From IMG/VR virus record IMGVR_UViG_3300044633_000984, positions 1 through 27,171 of that record: DNA of 27,171 bases; one strand, 5' to 3'. This DNA comes from a virus. A program made the position numbers and the translations under genes. Below, in pieces: positions 9,539-26,988 of this stretch. A model generated the notes under the pieces. That model made no database searches. It saw only the letters and a program-made list of their open reading frames with translations, and had not been told where the DNA came from. Each line of letters begins with the position of its first letter. Position 1 is the first letter of the stretch.

Positions 9539-10736
9539 TGTTCTCAGCCTTTGCCATTTTCATTTTTGATGCTAAGAAATTTTGTCTAGAGAACTCTGCT
9601 CTGTCGACAAACTTTGCCATATGACCACCACGAACAGCAACAGCGCCTTCAGGAGAACTTTTGGCACCACCGATATGATGATCGAACTCAGCATTTTTAG
9701 CCATGGCTCTGGTTAGAACGTCCTTGGCTCTCTGAAAATGATGGTGCAATTCTAGTGCATCATCAATATGCTTTTTGCTCTGGGTTACAGACTTGATCTT
9801 AGAAGAAAACGCTGCATGCTTACGATCCACAGCTGCTGCTGACTTAAGTTTTGATACTTCCTTAGAGTGCTTGTCAGTCAGATGCTTGATGAATCCATCA
9901 GCTGATGGCTTGCCGTTCTTTTTAACTTCGTCATTAATATGGGTTTCCAAGTGAACCGAATGCTCTTTAACTGCATCCAGTGCCTCTGGCTTCATAGACG
10001 AATACTTTTTACGAGCATTTTCAATATGCTCATGATACTTATTTTGATCAGCAGATGAATAATGTTGTGAATGAGTCTTTAATTCTGGATCGATATTGTG
10101 CACATCCGGATGATGCTTAAAATTATGCCTATCAACATTGGGTGTTGCACCCATGTTATCTAGGTCTTTTCCTTCATACTTGGTGTGTACAACCACACCC
10201 ATTTTAGCATGCTTGATAGCCGCACCGTGGTGCGAGTCTTCTGGGGTTGAATATGTAATGGTATTTGGTGTGAAATGGTACTTGCCGTTCTTGTGCTGAA
10301 TGTCATTTTTAGTGTACATCATATCGCCCTGATACACACCTTTATGCGGTGCAACCTTAGGAAGGTGCTTCAAGGCGTGCTTTAGTTTTTCGACAAGTCC
10401 AGGTGCATGGCCATGGTTGGCTTCTACGTCCTGATCTGTGTAATTCAGCTTAGGGGTTTTATTGAATGCAGATTTGGAGGCAACGAAAAAACGGCCATTG
10501 GAAGGATGATGGCCGAAGACGATTGAAGGGGCGCCGTCATATTTGACTGATACTTTAGTCTTATTGTCCTTACCAAGAAGCCTTTTATGCACATCATCCA
10601 TGATATTAGCAGCGTGTTTGACGCCATCGTTGCCATGGTGAATAACGAAATCCTCTAGGTGGGTCAGGTGCTTGAGCTTCTGACCTTCTGGTTCTGGATT
10701 AGCTTCTTCTAGGAGGAATCGAGTAAATGTTTTCAT
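9525..10736 (-). CDS. Ligase-like nucleotidyltransferase family protein (DUF6267-like), possibly packaged
   Basis: 403 residues. KVSVKYDGAPSIVFG (residues 61-75) has the K-x-D-G motif I of ATP-dependent DNA/RNA ligases and capping enzymes, with K65 as the likely AMP-accepting lysine. GVYQGDMMYT (133-142) sits where motif III (GE/GD) is expected and MGVVVHTKYEG (179-189) where motif IV is. EGAVAVRGGHMAKFVDRAEFSRQNF near the C-terminus may supply motif V. The overall pattern fits DUF6267 of T4-like phages, whose activity I do not know to have been shown. The N-terminus MKTFTRFLLEEA resembles T4 MKTYQEFIAEA and has L-L-E, a prohead-protease site. It is very His/Lys-rich. ATGA overlaps the stop of the HAD gene; a late box is at 10771-10778. 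Confidence 0.8.
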   Translation of the reverse strand: MKTFTRFLLEEANPEPEGQKLKHLTHLEDFVIHHGNDGVKHAANIMDDVHKRLLGKDNKTKVSVKYDGAPSIVFGHHPSNGRFFVASKSAFNKTPKLNYTDQDVEANHGHAPGLVEKLKHALKHLPKVAPHKGVYQGDMMYTKNDIQHKNGKYHFTPNTITYSTPEDSHHGAAIKHAKMGVVVHTKYEGKDLDNMGATPNVDRHNFKHHPDVHNIDPELKTHSQHYSSADQNKYHEHIENARKKYSSMKPEALDAVKEHSVHLETHINDEVKKNGKPSADGFIKHLTDKHSKEVSKLKSAAAVDRKHAAFSSKIKSVTQSKKHIDDALELHHHFQRAKDVLTRAMAKNAEFDHHIGGAKSSPEGAVAVRGGHMAKFVDRAEFSRQNFLASKMKMAKAENNEKV

Positions 10737-18266: not shown

Positions 18267-18284
18267 CTTCATATGAGGTTAAAC

Positions 18285-18665
18285 ATGCTTGGACTAATTA
18301 CTAAAGCTATTTCTTTTATTGGCATAGAACCATATAAACTTGCATTGGGCGCAATGGCCATTTTAATGCTTACAGGACTATATTTTTCTTGGAAATCTTC
18401 TGTTAAACGCGAAGCTCTGTATGAATTTAATACTAAGCAAATGGAACAAGTGCTAGAAGATCGTGCTGATTTAAAGCGGAAGCTAGATGAAATAGTTGAT
18501 GATCAGAGAAAGATTATCGCTGGACAGACCGAGTTCAAGGATAATATTGATCGCAAAATCACGAATCTACAGGTATTCCTTAAGTCTGATGCTGCCAAAA
18601 AGTTAGACAGACCGTCATCTGAAATCTTAAAGAGAACAATCCAAGATCTTAAGGAATCCAGATAA
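18285..18665 (+). CDS. Inner-membrane spanin (Rz-like)
   Basis: 126 residues from ATG 18285; GAGG seven bases upstream favours this start over the in-frame ATG at 18273. One N-terminal transmembrane segment (about residues 15-33, KLALGAMAILMLTGLYFSW) is followed by a charged coiled coil (KQMEQVLEDRADLKRKLDEIVDDQRK). This is the layout of i-spanins, which span the periplasm and link to an outer-membrane partner. The next gene, a lipoprotein, starts within TAATG at its stop, the classic i-/o-spanin arrangement. It shows that the host is Gram-negative. Identification rests on topology and gene pairing. Confidence 0.8.
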   Translation: MLGLITKAISFIGIEPYKLALGAMAILMLTGLYFSWKSSVKREALYEFNTKQMEQVLEDRADLKRKLDEIVDDQRKIIAGQTEFKDNIDRKITNLQVFLKSDAAKKLDRPSSEILKRTIQDLKESR

Positions 18666-18949
18666 TGAAAATCATTAGTGGTTTATTACTAGCCTTAACT
18701 CTATCGGCTTGCGGTGGACCCGGCTCAGTATACATTGTCAAGGAAGTTCCAGTTGTAATTACACCGGATGCAGAAATGTATTCATTCTGCAAAGGCATCG
18801 ATCAACTTCCCGATCCATCAACGCTAACAGATTTAGAAGTAGCAAATACAATCGTTATGCTTGACACAAAGCTTCGGCTTTGCGTTAATACCGTCCAGCA
18901 AATCAGAGATTTCCTAGATAAGGCTAAGCGCAAAGCCGAAGCGAAATAG
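18665..18949 (+). CDS. Outer-membrane spanin lipoprotein (Rz1-like)
   Basis: 94 residues with a lipoprotein signal: MKIISGLLLALTLSAC, lipobox LSAC, so the mature protein would begin at Cys16 followed by GGPGS (no inner-membrane retention Asp at +2). The mature part is 79 residues with two further Cys and a C-terminal helix (VQQIRDFLDKAKRKAEAK). Overlaps the i-spanin stop by one base (TAATG). Its TAG stop at 18947-18949 abuts the 3' end of a tRNA on the opposite strand with no gap. Together the two spanins fuse inner and outer membranes in the last lysis step. Confidence 0.82.
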   Translation: MKIISGLLLALTLSACGGPGSVYIVKEVPVVITPDAEMYSFCKGIDQLPDPSTLTDLEVANTIVMLDTKLRLCVNTVQQIRDFLDKAKRKAEAK

Positions 18950-21119: not shown

Positions 21120-21195
21120 TGGCAGGCTCGCCAGGAATCGAACCCGGATCTTACAGTTTTGGAGACCGACGCACTAGCCATTGTGCTACGAACCT
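21120..21195 (-). tRNA. tRNA-Trp(CCA)
   Basis: 76 bases with encoded CCA. Acceptor AGGTTCG/CGAGCCT (one G-U), anticodon loop CTCCAAA gives CCA, T-loop TTCGATT, discriminator G as in bacterial tRNA-Trp. Its 5' end overlaps the stop codon of the gene at 21194-21556 by two bases. Confidence 0.9.
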
Positions 21196-21651: not shown

Positions 21652-21655
21652 AATG

Positions 21656-21728
21656 TCAGGACGGTGGGACTCGAACTCACAACCTCCAGCTTCCAAAGCC
21701 GGCACTCCACCAGTTGAGCTACGCCCTG
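21656..21728 (-). tRNA. tRNA-Pro(UGG)
   Basis: 73 bases, no encoded CCA. Acceptor CAGGGCG/CGTCCTG, anticodon arm CCGGC-TTTGGAA-GCTGG giving TGG, T-loop TTCGAGT. Unlike most neighbours it needs CCA addition. Confidence 0.92.
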
Positions 21729-21736
21729 TAACTTTT

Positions 21737-22453
21737 TTACACCATGGTTAGTAGTGTATTATCCACAAACACATTATCCTTCGTGGCCTTAGACTTCTTC
21801 ATCGGCATACACGCGAATGAAGTCATAACATTTCCCATATCAGGTTCGATAAAGTGCACGGTCTGCACTCCACGGGCCTCTAGAAAATTCTTCTTAGCCT
21901 CTAGCGCACCACCATCCGGAACCCCGAAAACAGTGAAATGAAGCTTCTTAGCATCGTACTCCGTAGCAGCCACTGCCTGACCAAGAACCATCGTACAGTG
22001 CGCGGTCTGAACCAACTGCTGCTCTCTAGACATATCCTGCTTAGTAAAGATATAAGCATAAACTGTATTAGCCTTAGGATCACGATATACCGGCTCAGCT
22101 GAGCCGAAATGGTTACGTAGTTCTTGAGCCATATCGTCAAGGACATTAACCATTTGCCTTTCTTCATCAGAAGGTTTAGCGTTTAGATTCCAACGACGCA
22201 GCTGGAATAAAACCATATTCAAAGCGCGCAGAACACCGTCGTGTGGCTTTGCACCGTTGGCCAACTCAGTCTTAGACGAAATCGGCGTAAAGGCCGATGT
22301 AAGAAAAATCTTGGCTAGATCAATCTTATAGTTAGACTTGGCGTGATAAGCACGCCGGATATGGTACATTGCCATATCACCAGATGTAAGAGTCTTAGCC
22401 GCAGCCTTTTCCTTGTGCTGCTTAATGAAGTCGTCAAAATTAATACAAAACAT
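21737..22453 (-). CDS. Protein with a C-terminal PTH2-like domain (tentative)
   Basis: 238 residues. Residues about 1-115 are helical and unassigned. The C-terminal half, YAYIFTKQDMSREQQLVQTAHCTMVLGQAVAA then KLHFTVFGVPDGGALEAKKNFLEARGVQTVHFIEPDMGNVMTSFACMP, resembles the peptidyl-tRNA hydrolase 2 fold: an N-terminal strand, a Q/H-containing helix and a final strand region ending (F/Y)-x-E-P-D-x-x-x-x-x-T-S-x-A. PTH2 frees tRNA from stalled peptides; here catalysis is not certain. GGGGAG lies before ATG 22453. The position next to tRNA genes fits an RNA-related role. Confidence 0.6.
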   Translation of the reverse strand: MFCINFDDFIKQHKEKAAAKTLTSGDMAMYHIRRAYHAKSNYKIDLAKIFLTSAFTPISSKTELANGAKPHDGVLRALNMVLFQLRRWNLNAKPSDEERQMVNVLDDMAQELRNHFGSAEPVYRDPKANTVYAYIFTKQDMSREQQLVQTAHCTMVLGQAVAATEYDAKKLHFTVFGVPDGGALEAKKNFLEARGVQTVHFIEPDMGNVMTSFACMPMKKSKATKDNVFVDNTLLTMV

Positions 22454-22562: not shown

Positions 22563-22637
22563 TGGTTCCTGTGCGAGGGCTCGAACCCCGATCGTCAGTT
22601 TTGAAGACTGCGCTCTAACCAGTTGAGCTACACAAGA
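22563..22637 (-). tRNA. tRNA with anticodon UCA (UGA-reading, suppressor or Sec type)
   Basis: 75 bases with encoded CCA. Acceptor TCTTGTG/CACAGGA pairs at all seven positions (one G-U). D-arm GCTC/GAGC, T-arm CGGGG-TTCGAGC-CCTCG. The anticodon stem that pairs is CAGT/ACTG with the loop CTTCAAA, so anticodon TCA. Taking the loop one base later gives CAA but leaves no stem pairs. The loop is the same as in E. coli tRNA-Sec, but the rest (7-bp acceptor, short variable loop, discriminator A) is not selC-like. It is one base shorter than usual between D-stem and anticodon loop. Confidence 0.75.
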
Positions 22638-22658: not shown

Positions 22659-22770
22659 ACGAGCTCGGAAATCATACGGTAGCTTAACTGGATAAAGCCG
22701 TTACAACGAGATATCAGTTCGAGTCTGATACGTAGTGAAGGTGTACAACTTCCAAGATTTCCGAGCTCGT
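22659..22770 (+). other. tRNA-like element without a normal anticodon arm, inside a 15-bp inverted repeat
   Basis: Perfect 15-bp arms (ACGAGCTCGGAAATC at 22659-22673; its complement at 22756-22770) enclose 82 bases. On plus these contain a tRNA-type D-arm (TA-GCTT-AACTGGATA-AAGC, 22680-22698) and T-arm (TATCAG-TTCGAGT-CTGATA, 22712-22730) flanked by TACG/CGTA. Where the anticodon arm should be is only CGTTACAACG. A further hairpin GAAG...CTTC follows the T-arm. It is the only plus-strand tRNA-like sequence in a minus-strand tRNA region. It cannot decode as a normal tRNA. Confidence 0.7.
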
Positions 22771-22775
22771 CAAAA

Positions 22776-22851
22776 TGGTACCAGTAGGAGGGCTCGAACC
22801 TCCGACCTAGCGGTTATCGACCGCTTGCTCTCCCAGCTGAGCTATACTGGC
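22776..22851 (-). tRNA. tRNA-Ile(GAU), with C at position 33
   Basis: 76 bases with encoded CCA. Acceptor GCCAGTA/TACTGGT, anticodon arm AGCGG-TCGATAA-CCGCT, T-loop TTCGAGC, discriminator A. The anticodon is GAT, but the nearly universal U33 is replaced by C. Confidence 0.82.
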
Positions 22852-22903: not shown

Positions 22904-23980
22904 TTAGTCATTATTTAGCAAATACTTGTTAGAAATTGCCTTGAAAGAAGGTCCATCACGCTCGACATGCTTAAAAACAATGCCTTCACGTTCCTTAGCA
23001 TTATTGAGAATAGAACGACCTTCGGCCATTGACACAATTCCATCAGCCGTAGCATTGACTGGAAGATTGTACAGTCCTAGAACCGGCACATGATCTAGAC
23101 CACATCTCGTAACAACAAACCTACGTGTTTCAGGTGATACGTAAGAACCACCATCAATATCATAGATATTATAAATGTAGAACTTAAGTTCACTCAAGCC
23201 GTAGTAGTTGCCCTGTACTCCAGGACCAACTAGCTCGCCCTGCAGTGCGATGTTCATGTCAATATTAGAAATGATTCTTTCTAGGTTTAAGCTACGCGCA
23301 GCCTTCCAAAATGCATTAGTTTCATCTTCGACGAGCTCAAGATTACGCGAGCAAACGCCGAACTGGCCGTTATTCCAGTATACAGTCATTGACGAACCTT
23401 CAAGCTTCTCGGTAACTTCCCAAAGCATATCAGGAACTTCTCGGGGAGAGCCGTCCCAATGGTTCATATCAGAAGTCCACTTGGCCAATTCCTTGGTCAT
23501 GTTCTGAACACGTTCCTCGTCAGTCTTAGGAATGAATGACGGGAAATTACCCTTTACAATACCAGCAAGCTTAGCATTAATAGGCTTCTCCCACTTCTTA
23601 ATGCCTAGAATAGCAGTGAGATCATATCCTTCAACGAACTCATTTTCATCAGCTGGAACCGGCATATACACAAGAATATCCTTGATCGGCAGGATCAAGC
23701 CCTGAGAAATCTGGCCGCGAAGCTTGATTGTACGAAGACGAGCACCGACAACACCTTCATATGTCTTCGGGTTCTTATCGAGGAACGCAGCGATGCTGCA
23801 AGGAATCCACGAATCAATCTCAAAGTACACAACCAAATCACCAACGTTAAAACGGTTGACCTTGGCAGTTACAAGCTTCCACCCGTCTACTGTGGCACAC
23901 TCGATACGGTCTGCTCCTTCAATAGGCTCTAGAGCAGAAATTCTACGGATAGACGCTAGCTTTCTTGTAGTATCAGTCAT
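22904..23980 (-). CDS. RNA ligase, Rnl5/DraRnl-like, with N-terminal OB domain
   Basis: 358 residues from ATG 23980 (AGAGG 6-7 bases upstream); an in-frame ATG at 24004 lies inside the upstream gene and is rejected. Residues 1-100 (RRISALEPIEGADRIECATVDGWKLVTAKVNRFNVGDLVVYFEIDS) are the OB-like domain of the DRB0094-type RNA ligases. Motif I is TEKLEGSS with K192 as the adenylated lysine; ALQGELVGPG is motif III-like, REGIVFKHV motif IV and SFKAISNKYL motif V. Such enzymes seal 3'-OH/5'-phosphate nicks in RNA. The start overlaps the nucleotidyltransferase stop by 8 bases (ATGACTGA), so the two are made together. Confidence 0.9.
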   Translation of the reverse strand: MTDTTRKLASIRRISALEPIEGADRIECATVDGWKLVTAKVNRFNVGDLVVYFEIDSWIPCSIAAFLDKNPKTYEGVVGARLRTIKLRGQISQGLILPIKDILVYMPVPADENEFVEGYDLTAILGIKKWEKPINAKLAGIVKGNFPSFIPKTDEERVQNMTKELAKWTSDMNHWDGSPREVPDMLWEVTEKLEGSSMTVYWNNGQFGVCSRNLELVEDETNAFWKAARSLNLERIISNIDMNIALQGELVGPGVQGNYYGLSELKFYIYNIYDIDGGSYVSPETRRFVVTRCGLDHVPVLGLYNLPVNATADGIVSMAEGRSILNNAKEREGIVFKHVERDGPSFKAISNKYLLNND

Positions 23981-24836
23981 TTTCGCCTCTAAACACCAGA
24001 TCAATCAGGTCCATAATATATGCACGATCCCAGATATTATTCTCTTCCTTATTTTGTTCCATCTTTCGAATAAGGTCGAGAAAATACATGTAATCTACGC
24101 CGATAAGCTGTTCCTTCAGAACATCGACGTTCTTTAGGTCTAGCTCATTAATATCCCAAGCAATCTTTAGCATATCACCGGCAGTGATAGTCCAACCACG
24201 CTCGATAAACTTCTTAATCCTAAACATAGAACACAACGGATACTTAGATCCGGTATATACTAGTTCTTTCGCTAGTGTTGCAGCTAGAGCCGCACCATTA
24301 AACACTACACCGTTTGCATTTGTCCAATAATTCTTGGTATGAACAAAATCATAGTTCTCATGAATAACGTCCGGATCACCGACAAACCTGAAGATCAACT
24401 GGATCTTATCGGAGAGGGTAATAGCATTTGCAGAGATAAAGAGCGGCTCATACTTCTCAGTATCAACCGAAGTCATAACGTTAAAATTGAAAGTAGAATC
24501 AGCAGTAATAAAGTTCTTATGCTTTACTTCAAGACAAACGCCTGAGTTATCACCACGGGGAGTAATAACAAACGTTTCAAGGTTAGTCATCTTTGCTGCA
24601 TAATACTGAGCTAGATCAGTAGCAAGAGTAATGTCAGAAAAGTACACGTCGAAATCGTTAGGTATCTCACCTAGAAGCATCGAAGTGATCGCACCGCCAG
24701 TGACGATAACCGCAGGACGAATTCTAATTCGGAGCTGCTCATTATCAACAGTTTTGATCCACTTATCAATCTTCTTAGAGATAATATCGTTAATCGTGCG
24801 CTTCTTCATGCCGCGCGGAACATTCACTTCAGACAT
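23973..24836 (-). CDS. Pol beta-type nucleotidyltransferase (CCA-adding/poly(A) polymerase-like head)
   Basis: 287 residues. AVIVTGGAITSMLLGEIPNDFDVYF (about residues 43-67) has the GG-x(n)-G and D-x-D catalytic pattern of tRNA nucleotidyltransferases and poly(A) polymerases. TFNFNVMTS and LSDKIQLIFRFVGDP follow as the palm and start of the helical part. No full CCA-enzyme neck/body domain is evident, so the added nucleotide and target are unknown. It stops with TGA inside the RNA ligase start (ATGACTGA). Placed among tRNA genes with an RNA ligase, an RNA 3'-end role is likely but inferred. Upstream gene overlaps its start by 8 bases. Confidence 0.82.
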   Translation of the reverse strand: MSEVNVPRGMKKRTINDIISKKIDKWIKTVDNEQLRIRIRPAVIVTGGAITSMLLGEIPNDFDVYFSDITLATDLAQYYAAKMTNLETFVITPRGDNSGVCLEVKHKNFITADSTFNFNVMTSVDTEKYEPLFISANAITLSDKIQLIFRFVGDPDVIHENYDFVHTKNYWTNANGVVFNGAALAATLAKELVYTGSKYPLCSMFRIKKFIERGWTITAGDMLKIAWDINELDLKNVDVLKEQLIGVDYMYFLDLIRKMEQNKEENNIWDRAYIMDLIDLVFRGEND

Positions 24837-25949: not shown

Positions 25950-26418
25950 TAGTTATTTTTAGTTGTGAATCATACCGGTATTCTGAAATTGTACAACCAG
26001 CTTCATAAAGCATATTCTTAGACATTTCCCACGAAGAAATCCAAGGCTCATGAATCTTTTCAGGATAACAAACAATGACTTTGCTTATGCCAGCCTGAAT
26101 AATACCTTTAGCACATTCTGAACAAAGCGGAAGACCCCAGATATACATATGGGCATTCAACAATGACAAACCTAGAAGTGAAGCGTTATAGATACAATTC
26201 ATTTCGGCATGGATTGTATACTTGTACTTTGTAATTCTTTCTTCTAGACGCTCAGGCAAATCTTGTAGGGCTCTAGGGAATCCATTATATCCCTGAGTAA
26301 GAATTTGGCCATAATGTGGTTTAACTGTTACAGCACCAACCTGTGTCGAAGGATCTTTAGACCAAGTCGATACTTCTTTAGCTACCCTGAGATATCTCAG
26401 GTCCCACTTATCAGACAC
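25933..26418 (-). CDS. dCMP deaminase
   Basis: 161 residues with a GTG start at 26418 (VSDKWDLRYLRVAKEVSTWSKDP...), chosen because the frame further upstream lies within another gene and GGTG precedes this GTG. The zinc/catalytic motif is YTIHAEMNCIYNA (HAE), with the second part GLPLCSECAKGIIQAG (PxxxC-x-x-C). STQVGAVTV and YNGFPR are typical of T4-type dCMP deaminases. It makes dUMP for ThyX. The start overlaps the upstream stop (GTGTCTGA), indicating coupling. The promoter at 25921-25949 lies across its stop codon region. Confidence 0.93.
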   Translation of the reverse strand: MSDKWDLRYLRVAKEVSTWSKDPSTQVGAVTVKPHYGQILTQGYNGFPRALQDLPERLEERITKYKYTIHAEMNCIYNASLLGLSLLNAHMYIWGLPLCSECAKGIIQAGISKVIVCYPEKIHEPWISSWEMSKNMLYEAGCTISEYRYDSQLKITMYKPF

Positions 26419-26792: not shown

Positions 26793-26885
26793 TGGTACCC
26801 GTACCCGGAGTCGAACCGAGACTGTGCTCCTATCTAGAGCTAAACCGATCATAAGGCGGGTGTTCTACCATTAAACTATACGGGG
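26793..26885 (-). tRNA. Atypical class II tRNA, isotype unclear
   Basis: 93 bases with encoded CCA. Acceptor CCCCGTA/TACGGGT (six pairs) and T-arm CTCGG-TTCGACT-CCGGG are sound. A long variable arm GCTC-TAGATAG-GAGC is present. The anticodon arm is poor: with loop CTTATGA the anticodon would be TAT (Ile), but only three stem pairs form. The isotype is not secure. Confidence 0.6.
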
Positions 26886-26905: not shown

Positions 26906-26988
26906 TGGCCCAGGCGGAGGGACTCGAACCCCCATTTGCAGCTCCAATTACGATTAGAGAGGTAGAAACTCTCCTCGACTACGCCTAG
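26906..26988 (-). tRNA. tRNA-like gene, possibly Arg(UCU), with no normal D-arm
   Basis: 83 bases with encoded CCA. Acceptor CTAGGCG/CGCCTGG and T-arm GGGGG-TTCGAGT-CCCTC are good. A strong hairpin GAGAG-TTTCTAC-CTCTC would give anticodon TCT, but it begins only six bases after positions 8-9, leaving no D-arm. About 23 bases then separate it from the T-arm. Either a D-armless tRNA, a decayed one, or the hairpin replaces the D-arm. Confidence 0.55.

Follow-up and report, generated by a model that had tools for sequence, protein, structure and literature searches.

Stop-reading tRNAs are known in phages that keep the standard genetic code, but they are without explanation. The Agrobacterium phage Atu_ph07 has a published UCA tRNA alongside 267 UGA stops, for which targets have been no more than suggested (PMC6102473), and the Xanthomonas phage XacN1 carries two CUA suppressor tRNAs, for which the authors identified no readthrough targets (PMC5852040). 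Phage recoding concentrated in structural or lysis genes has been described (PMC10746230), and altered anticodon loops of phage tRNAs have been proposed to serve nuclease evasion (PMC10264068). As far as the tRNA body is concerned, a 2026 study reports that tRNAs with an unpinned top anticodon-stem pair give better stop readthrough, a G27-A43 tRNA-Thr converted to an amber suppressor being among the better ones, and that a tRNA-Trp(CCA) with a 4-bp anticodon stem (defined by a stem unpinned at the top, a 7-nt loop, no A9C and no G24A) lifts UGA readthrough by a factor of about 2.5 in E. coli (PMC13092985). According to the same study, a UCA tRNA accompanies the 4-bp tRNA-Trp in 65 of the 70 reassigned bacteria having the latter, and E. 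coli tRNA-Thr2, with G27-A43, is cited as functional.

The phage described here is represented by a 27,171-base IMG/VR virus record, analyzed in full and hereafter called the window, which has the genes of a T4-like replication set, among them those for ribonucleotide reductase, DNA polymerase, RNA ligase, dCMP deaminase and endolysin. The 35.6-kb contig IMGVR_UViG_3300034066_001370 shows 3 mismatches to the window across the shared 27 kb and carries the same UCA tRNA; with the further overlapping contig IMGVR_UViG_3300034071_000996, it brings 38.5 kb of the phage into view, contig extension having added 3 kb on one side only. ARAGORN finds 12 tRNAs in the window, all on the minus strand between 18.9 and 27.0 kb, the UCA tRNA being one of them (Table 1). 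Judging from sequence features, we hold it somewhat probable (roughly 0.55) that this gene is a genuine, weak opal-suppressor-type tRNA in the array of a standard-code T4-like phage. The interpretation given in the initial annotation survives with regard to the UCA anticodon, the distinction from tRNA-Sec, the standard code and the use of UGA as a stop, but not with regard to an adaptive role of backup stops or to the novelty that it implied, given Atu_ph07, XacN1 and several standard-code IMG/VR contigs with UCA tRNAs. The gene is a further example of a kind already known in ordinary-code phages, and what sets it apart is mainly the rarity of UGA among the stop codons of the phage itself.

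Table 1. Features of the window discussed in the text
Feature	Position	Strand	Details
tRNA, anticodon UCA	22563..22637	-	ARAGORN; Rfam RF00005; stem analysis
tRNA-Ile(GAU), array neighbor	22776..22851	-	ARAGORN, Rfam
tRNA-Pro(UGG), array neighbor	21655..21728	-	ARAGORN, Rfam
tRNA-Trp(CCA)	21120..21195	-	G73, A1-U72; U27.U43 mismatch, giving a 4-bp anticodon stem
RNA ligase (PF09414 with PHA02142 OB-fold)	22904..23980	-	tRNA-repair context
Nucleotidyltransferase-like protein (phrog_4400, putative)	23973..24836	-	motif read by eye
UGA stop of HAD-like gene	10733..10735	-	4-nt ATGA overlap with next gene; TAG 7 codons on
UGA stop of nucleotidyltransferase-like gene	23973..23975	-	8-nt ATGACTGA overlap with RNA ligase start; TAG 9 codons on
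UGA stop of 58-aa ORF	24829..24831	-	8-nt ATGTCTGA overlap; TAA 12 codons on
UGA stop of 88-aa gene	26411..26413	-	overlaps dCMP deaminase start (hand-inferred GTG); immediate TAA

The tRNA(UCA) of Atu_ph07, which we located and read in MF403008 near 430.7 kb, likewise comes from a large phage with a tRNA array and UGA stops in use, and it shares the length of 75 nt, the CTTCAAA loop, A73 and the encoded CCA. However, its body is unrelated beyond the tRNA consensus, its anticodon stem has a C.A at 31:39 whereas the mismatch here is at 27:43, and UGA is abundant in Atu_ph07 and rare here. XacN1 resembles our phage in that its suppressor tRNAs go with neither a known target nor a known change of code, the difference being amber there and opal here. 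The Trp-like anticodon arm is shared with the tRNA-Trp(UCA) of bacteria in which UGA is reassigned, and the co-occurrence of a UCA tRNA with a 4-bp-stem tRNA-Trp(CCA) in one genome is common to both; different from those bacteria (PMC13092985), the phage keeps UGA as a stop, and the acceptor end of its UCA tRNA is not Trp-like.

Structure and origin of the UCA tRNA

The check with a tRNA caller proposed in the initial annotation was affirmative: ARAGORN calls a 75-nt tRNA with anticodon tca, and Rfam concurs, RF00005 matching positions 22637-22566 with 49.7 bits (cut-off 29, E 5e-8), a score in the middle of the range of the 12 tRNAs of the array (24.7 to 69.9 bits). The acceptor stem has 7 bp (U1-A72, C2-G71, U3.G70 and four more pairs), followed by a GCUC/GAGC D arm, a 4-nt variable loop and a 5-bp T stem, and the 3' end presents A73 with CCA encoded in the gene. 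The anticodon stem has four clean pairs (CAGU/ACUG) below a G27.A43 mismatch, and it is one pair short, nt 26 or 27 being absent. Since this stem, with the loop CUUCAAA, is the sole clean one, the anticodon is UCA, in agreement with the single pairing recognized in the initial annotation. The gene combines a canonical tRNA fold with the UCA anticodon, as expected of a phage-encoded opal suppressor tRNA, tRNA-Sup(UCA), which by definition would also be charged and insert an amino acid at UGA. As read from the anticodon, the product can pair with UGA and by wobble also with UGG. Counting against the suppressor reading, besides the short anticodon stem, is a predicted fold of lower energy (-22.4 kcal/mol) than the cloverleaf (-18.3 kcal/mol). 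A promoter and terminator scan around the gene returned no more sites than shuffled sequences did.

The best phage database matches by bit score are Caulobacter phage tRNA-Trp genes (83% over 76% of the length), in which the D arm matches and the anticodon arm differs by C34 to U34 and by stem changes. The global identity to the RB23 tRNA-Trp is 73%, and that to the tRNA-Trp of the window itself is 68%; at such a distance, the UCA tRNA did not arise by recent duplication of the latter gene. Its anticodon arm is Trp-like (GUCUUCAAAAC compared with GUCUCCAAAAC in tRNA-Trp), the anticodon being one base from CCA, and the GTCTTCAAAAC arm is found again in many UCA tRNAs of other IMG/VR contigs. 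At the locus itself, IMG/VR has no orthologues except in contigs of the same species, and the copies of the gene found there are identical ones only. An origin from tRNA-Arg (UCU or UCG, one base off) had some BLAST matches, but the D loop lacks A20, and we consider it less likely than a Trp origin.

The acceptor identity of bacterial TrpRS consists of G73 and A1-U72. Both are present in the tRNA-Trp(CCA) of the window, whereas the UCA tRNA has A73 and U1-A72. Other phage UCA tRNAs have either A73, including those of recoding contigs, or G73, and some have A1-U72 (L201, L246).

A decaying gene seems unlikely to us, one for a formerly Trp-like tRNA whose anticodon stem and acceptor identity are damaged and which would be poorly charged and have no effect: the missing nt 26/27 and the short variable loop agree with it, as do clear relics in the array (22675-22734 (+), 20.3 bits; 26909-26988, 24.7 bits), but the remaining stems are all intact, the CCA is encoded, the Rfam score is 49.7 bits, and G27-A43 tRNAs work in E. 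coli, as the tRNA-Thr2 cited in PMC13092985 indicates.

The tRNA-Trp(CCA) of the window has U27.U43, a 7-nt loop, A9 and G24, in keeping with the definition of a Blastocrithidia-like 4-bp stem, so that both it and the UCA tRNA (G27.A43) have 4-bp anticodon stems; its U.U pair is not seen among the variants tested in the consulted parts of PMC13092985. The 4-bp stem is a feature that could help readthrough, and we do not read it as a sign of selection. In the phage tRNAs collected here, the 27:43 mismatch is not enriched in UCA tRNAs (6/32 versus 119/1063, P 0.25), and we rejected it as a suppressor signature. Similarly, a UCA tRNA is not linked with a 4-bp tRNA-Trp in the same locus (1/8 versus 5/30).

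The tRNA array and its repair-like genes

Besides the RNA ligase of the window, the phage encodes a T4 Rnl1-type ligase and a polynucleotide-kinase-like protein, found at positions 1069-2692 of locus L160 in contig IMGVR_UViG_3300034071_000996, whose overlap is 99.99% identical. The three proteins, as predicted from sequence, would be parts of a T4-style tRNA-repair route. Such a repair-like set fits a life with tRNA-cutting hosts, in which the array, UCA tRNA included, would be a backup for damaged tRNAs. It is possible to hypothesize that the UCA tRNA belongs mainly to a set replacing host tRNAs destroyed by anticodon nucleases, U34 making it a nuclease-resistant second Trp tRNA that decodes UGG and the reading of UGA being a side effect. 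The repair-like genes, the odd arms of several array tRNAs and the nuclease evasion proposed for altered anticodon loops (PMC10264068) speak for this hypothesis; nevertheless, its A73 and U1-A72 are unfavorable to charging with Trp, and a tRNA-Trp(CCA) is already encoded by the phage, which makes it improbable in our opinion.

Some further elements of the region deserve mention. Between the UCA and Ile tRNAs, the other strand carries a tRNA-like relic (22663-22772 (+)), with good D and T arms, an almost absent anticodon arm and an enclosing helix of 11 to 13 bp; Rfam matches it as tRNA at 22675-22734 (+) with 20.3 bits, below the cut-off, and its fold z-score is -2.9. A tRNA at about 26906-26988 (-) has an 8-nt loop and no clear anticodon (24.7 bits). 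At 26793-26885 (-), the tRNA called as Ile(UAU) is 93 nt long and contains an extra stem-loop. The 238-aa protein encoded at 21737-22453 (-) has no Pfam or PHROG match and no IMG/VR relative beyond its own species, and its C-terminal half is, by eye, reminiscent of peptidyl-tRNA hydrolase 2, for which it is a candidate.

UGA stops and the genetic code of the phage

In a list of 40 genes made by hand, in which a few starts are approximate and the stops are unaffected, the stop is UAA in 30 genes, UAG in 5 and UGA in 5. Each of the five UGA stops falls within a short overlap with the start of the following gene, compared with 8 overlapping genes among the other 35 (P 0.002); the overlaps are ATGA, GTGA, ATGTCTGA, ATGACTGA and a fifth, for which a GTG start was inferred. 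Overlap favors UGA generally, as 33% of UGA stops overlap, against 18% of UAA and 4% of UAG stops. When a single automatic gene caller was used for the phage and for its relatives, taken as contigs with related RNA ligases, UGA accounted for 1 of 35 non-overlapping stops here (the GTG case) and for 418 of 1248 (33%) in the relatives (Fisher P 2.6e-5).

The low use of UGA is nonetheless no evidence of suppression, because the tree of the RNA ligases, where the phage stands on a long branch, contains elsewhere a separate UGA-poor clade with no UCA tRNA within the stretches examined, and because other contigs that have a UCA tRNA and look standard-coded (G004, G007-G010) have ordinary rates of UGA stops. 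These findings do not support the idea that the UCA tRNA causes the avoidance of UGA.

The three UGA stops listed in the initial annotation and the in-frame stops following them (10733, 23973 and 26411 in Table 1) were all correct, and the fifth UGA stop, on an overlapping contig, is followed by TAG after 1 codon. A UAA or UAG within 12 codons thus follows 5 of 5 UGA stops; in the relatives, this holds for 56% of the overlapping and 49% of the non-overlapping ones, a rate from which the phage differs at a borderline level (about P 0.05). Because the relatives show the same tendency, the argument from backup stops carries little weight: it does not sustain the proposal that these stops are an adaptation limiting readthrough damage, and the excess of backup stops that had been suggested as a check is not specific.

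Under the preferred reading, that of a weak opal-suppressor-type tRNA, the gene would be transcribed together with the array, the A36-A37-A38 loop would be a substrate for the usual A37 modification, and a host synthetase would charge the product, which would then compete at UGA with release factor 2 of the host, cause readthrough at a low level and also decode some UGG by wobble. We propose that the phage would suffer only limited damage, since UGA terminates few of its genes and the extensions of those few are short.

Reading UGA as sense has no real effect on the ORF coverage of the window (0.87 to 0.89) or on the median length (218), and the overlapping contigs are standard-coded as well, as stated for the large genes in the initial annotation. 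For the 38.5 kb, a phage recoding UGA (code 4 or 25) was therefore rejected, with no recognizable gene having an in-frame UGA and no coding gain. The UCA tRNA might instead serve a reassignment of UGA in late genes beyond the 38.5 kb, which consist mostly of replication and metabolism genes, without structural genes; the scarcity of UGA stops and the known concentration of recoding in structural or lysis genes (PMC10746230) would be consistent with this. However, the endolysin and the two spanin-like genes in the window, all lysis genes, are standard-coded, and recoded-looking contigs show clear ORF lengthening in the sampled stretches while this phage shows none, so that we regard such a late reassignment as quite improbable. 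The spanin-like genes (18273-18949 (+)) overlap each other on the opposite strand; by eye, one looks like a spanin of the inner membrane and the other like an outer spanin that is a lipoprotein, with the lipobox LSACGG.

A long shot, in our estimate, is that the two UGA-prone tRNAs together raise UGA readthrough in the infected cell, the phage being cleared of non-overlapping UGA stops and UGA-ended host genes being hit harder; if true, reading by two tRNAs would be a mild, one-sided code change without reassignment. To the known cases, the phage adds a defined pattern, with UGA near-absent outside overlaps, two UGA-prone tRNAs and a tRNA-repair-like set nearby, from which concrete predictions for readthrough and charging assays follow. 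A selenocysteine tRNA has practically no chance of being correct, since ARAGORN prints its label "SeC" from the UCA anticodon, ordinary tRNA is the best Rfam family, no recognizable gene has an in-frame UGA, and in place of about 90 nt or more with a long variable arm and a lengthened acceptor/T helix we found 75 nt, a 4-nt variable loop, a 7-bp acceptor and a 5-bp T stem, which, with A73 and the encoded CCA, bears out the distinction made in the initial annotation.

Outside this species, Lactococcus phage PLgW-1 has an unannotated ARAGORN UCA call, and scanning IMG/VR yielded at least about 30 UCA tRNAs, of which many come from contigs that gain nothing when UGA is read. Two contigs that fit the pattern of UGA-to-Trp recoding phages (code 4; L101/G005 and L103/G006) share UCA, the CUUCAAA loop and A73 with our tRNA, but their ORF length rises when UGA is read, whereas here it is unchanged. 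In a 172-kb phage with a UCA tRNA (G002, IMGVR_UViG_3300005288_000001), two sampled 20-kb stretches (L133, L134) differ, one gaining ORF length with UGA read and the other having 17 of 17 genes ending in TAA and no UGA; possibly, UGA recoding is region-wise in that phage.
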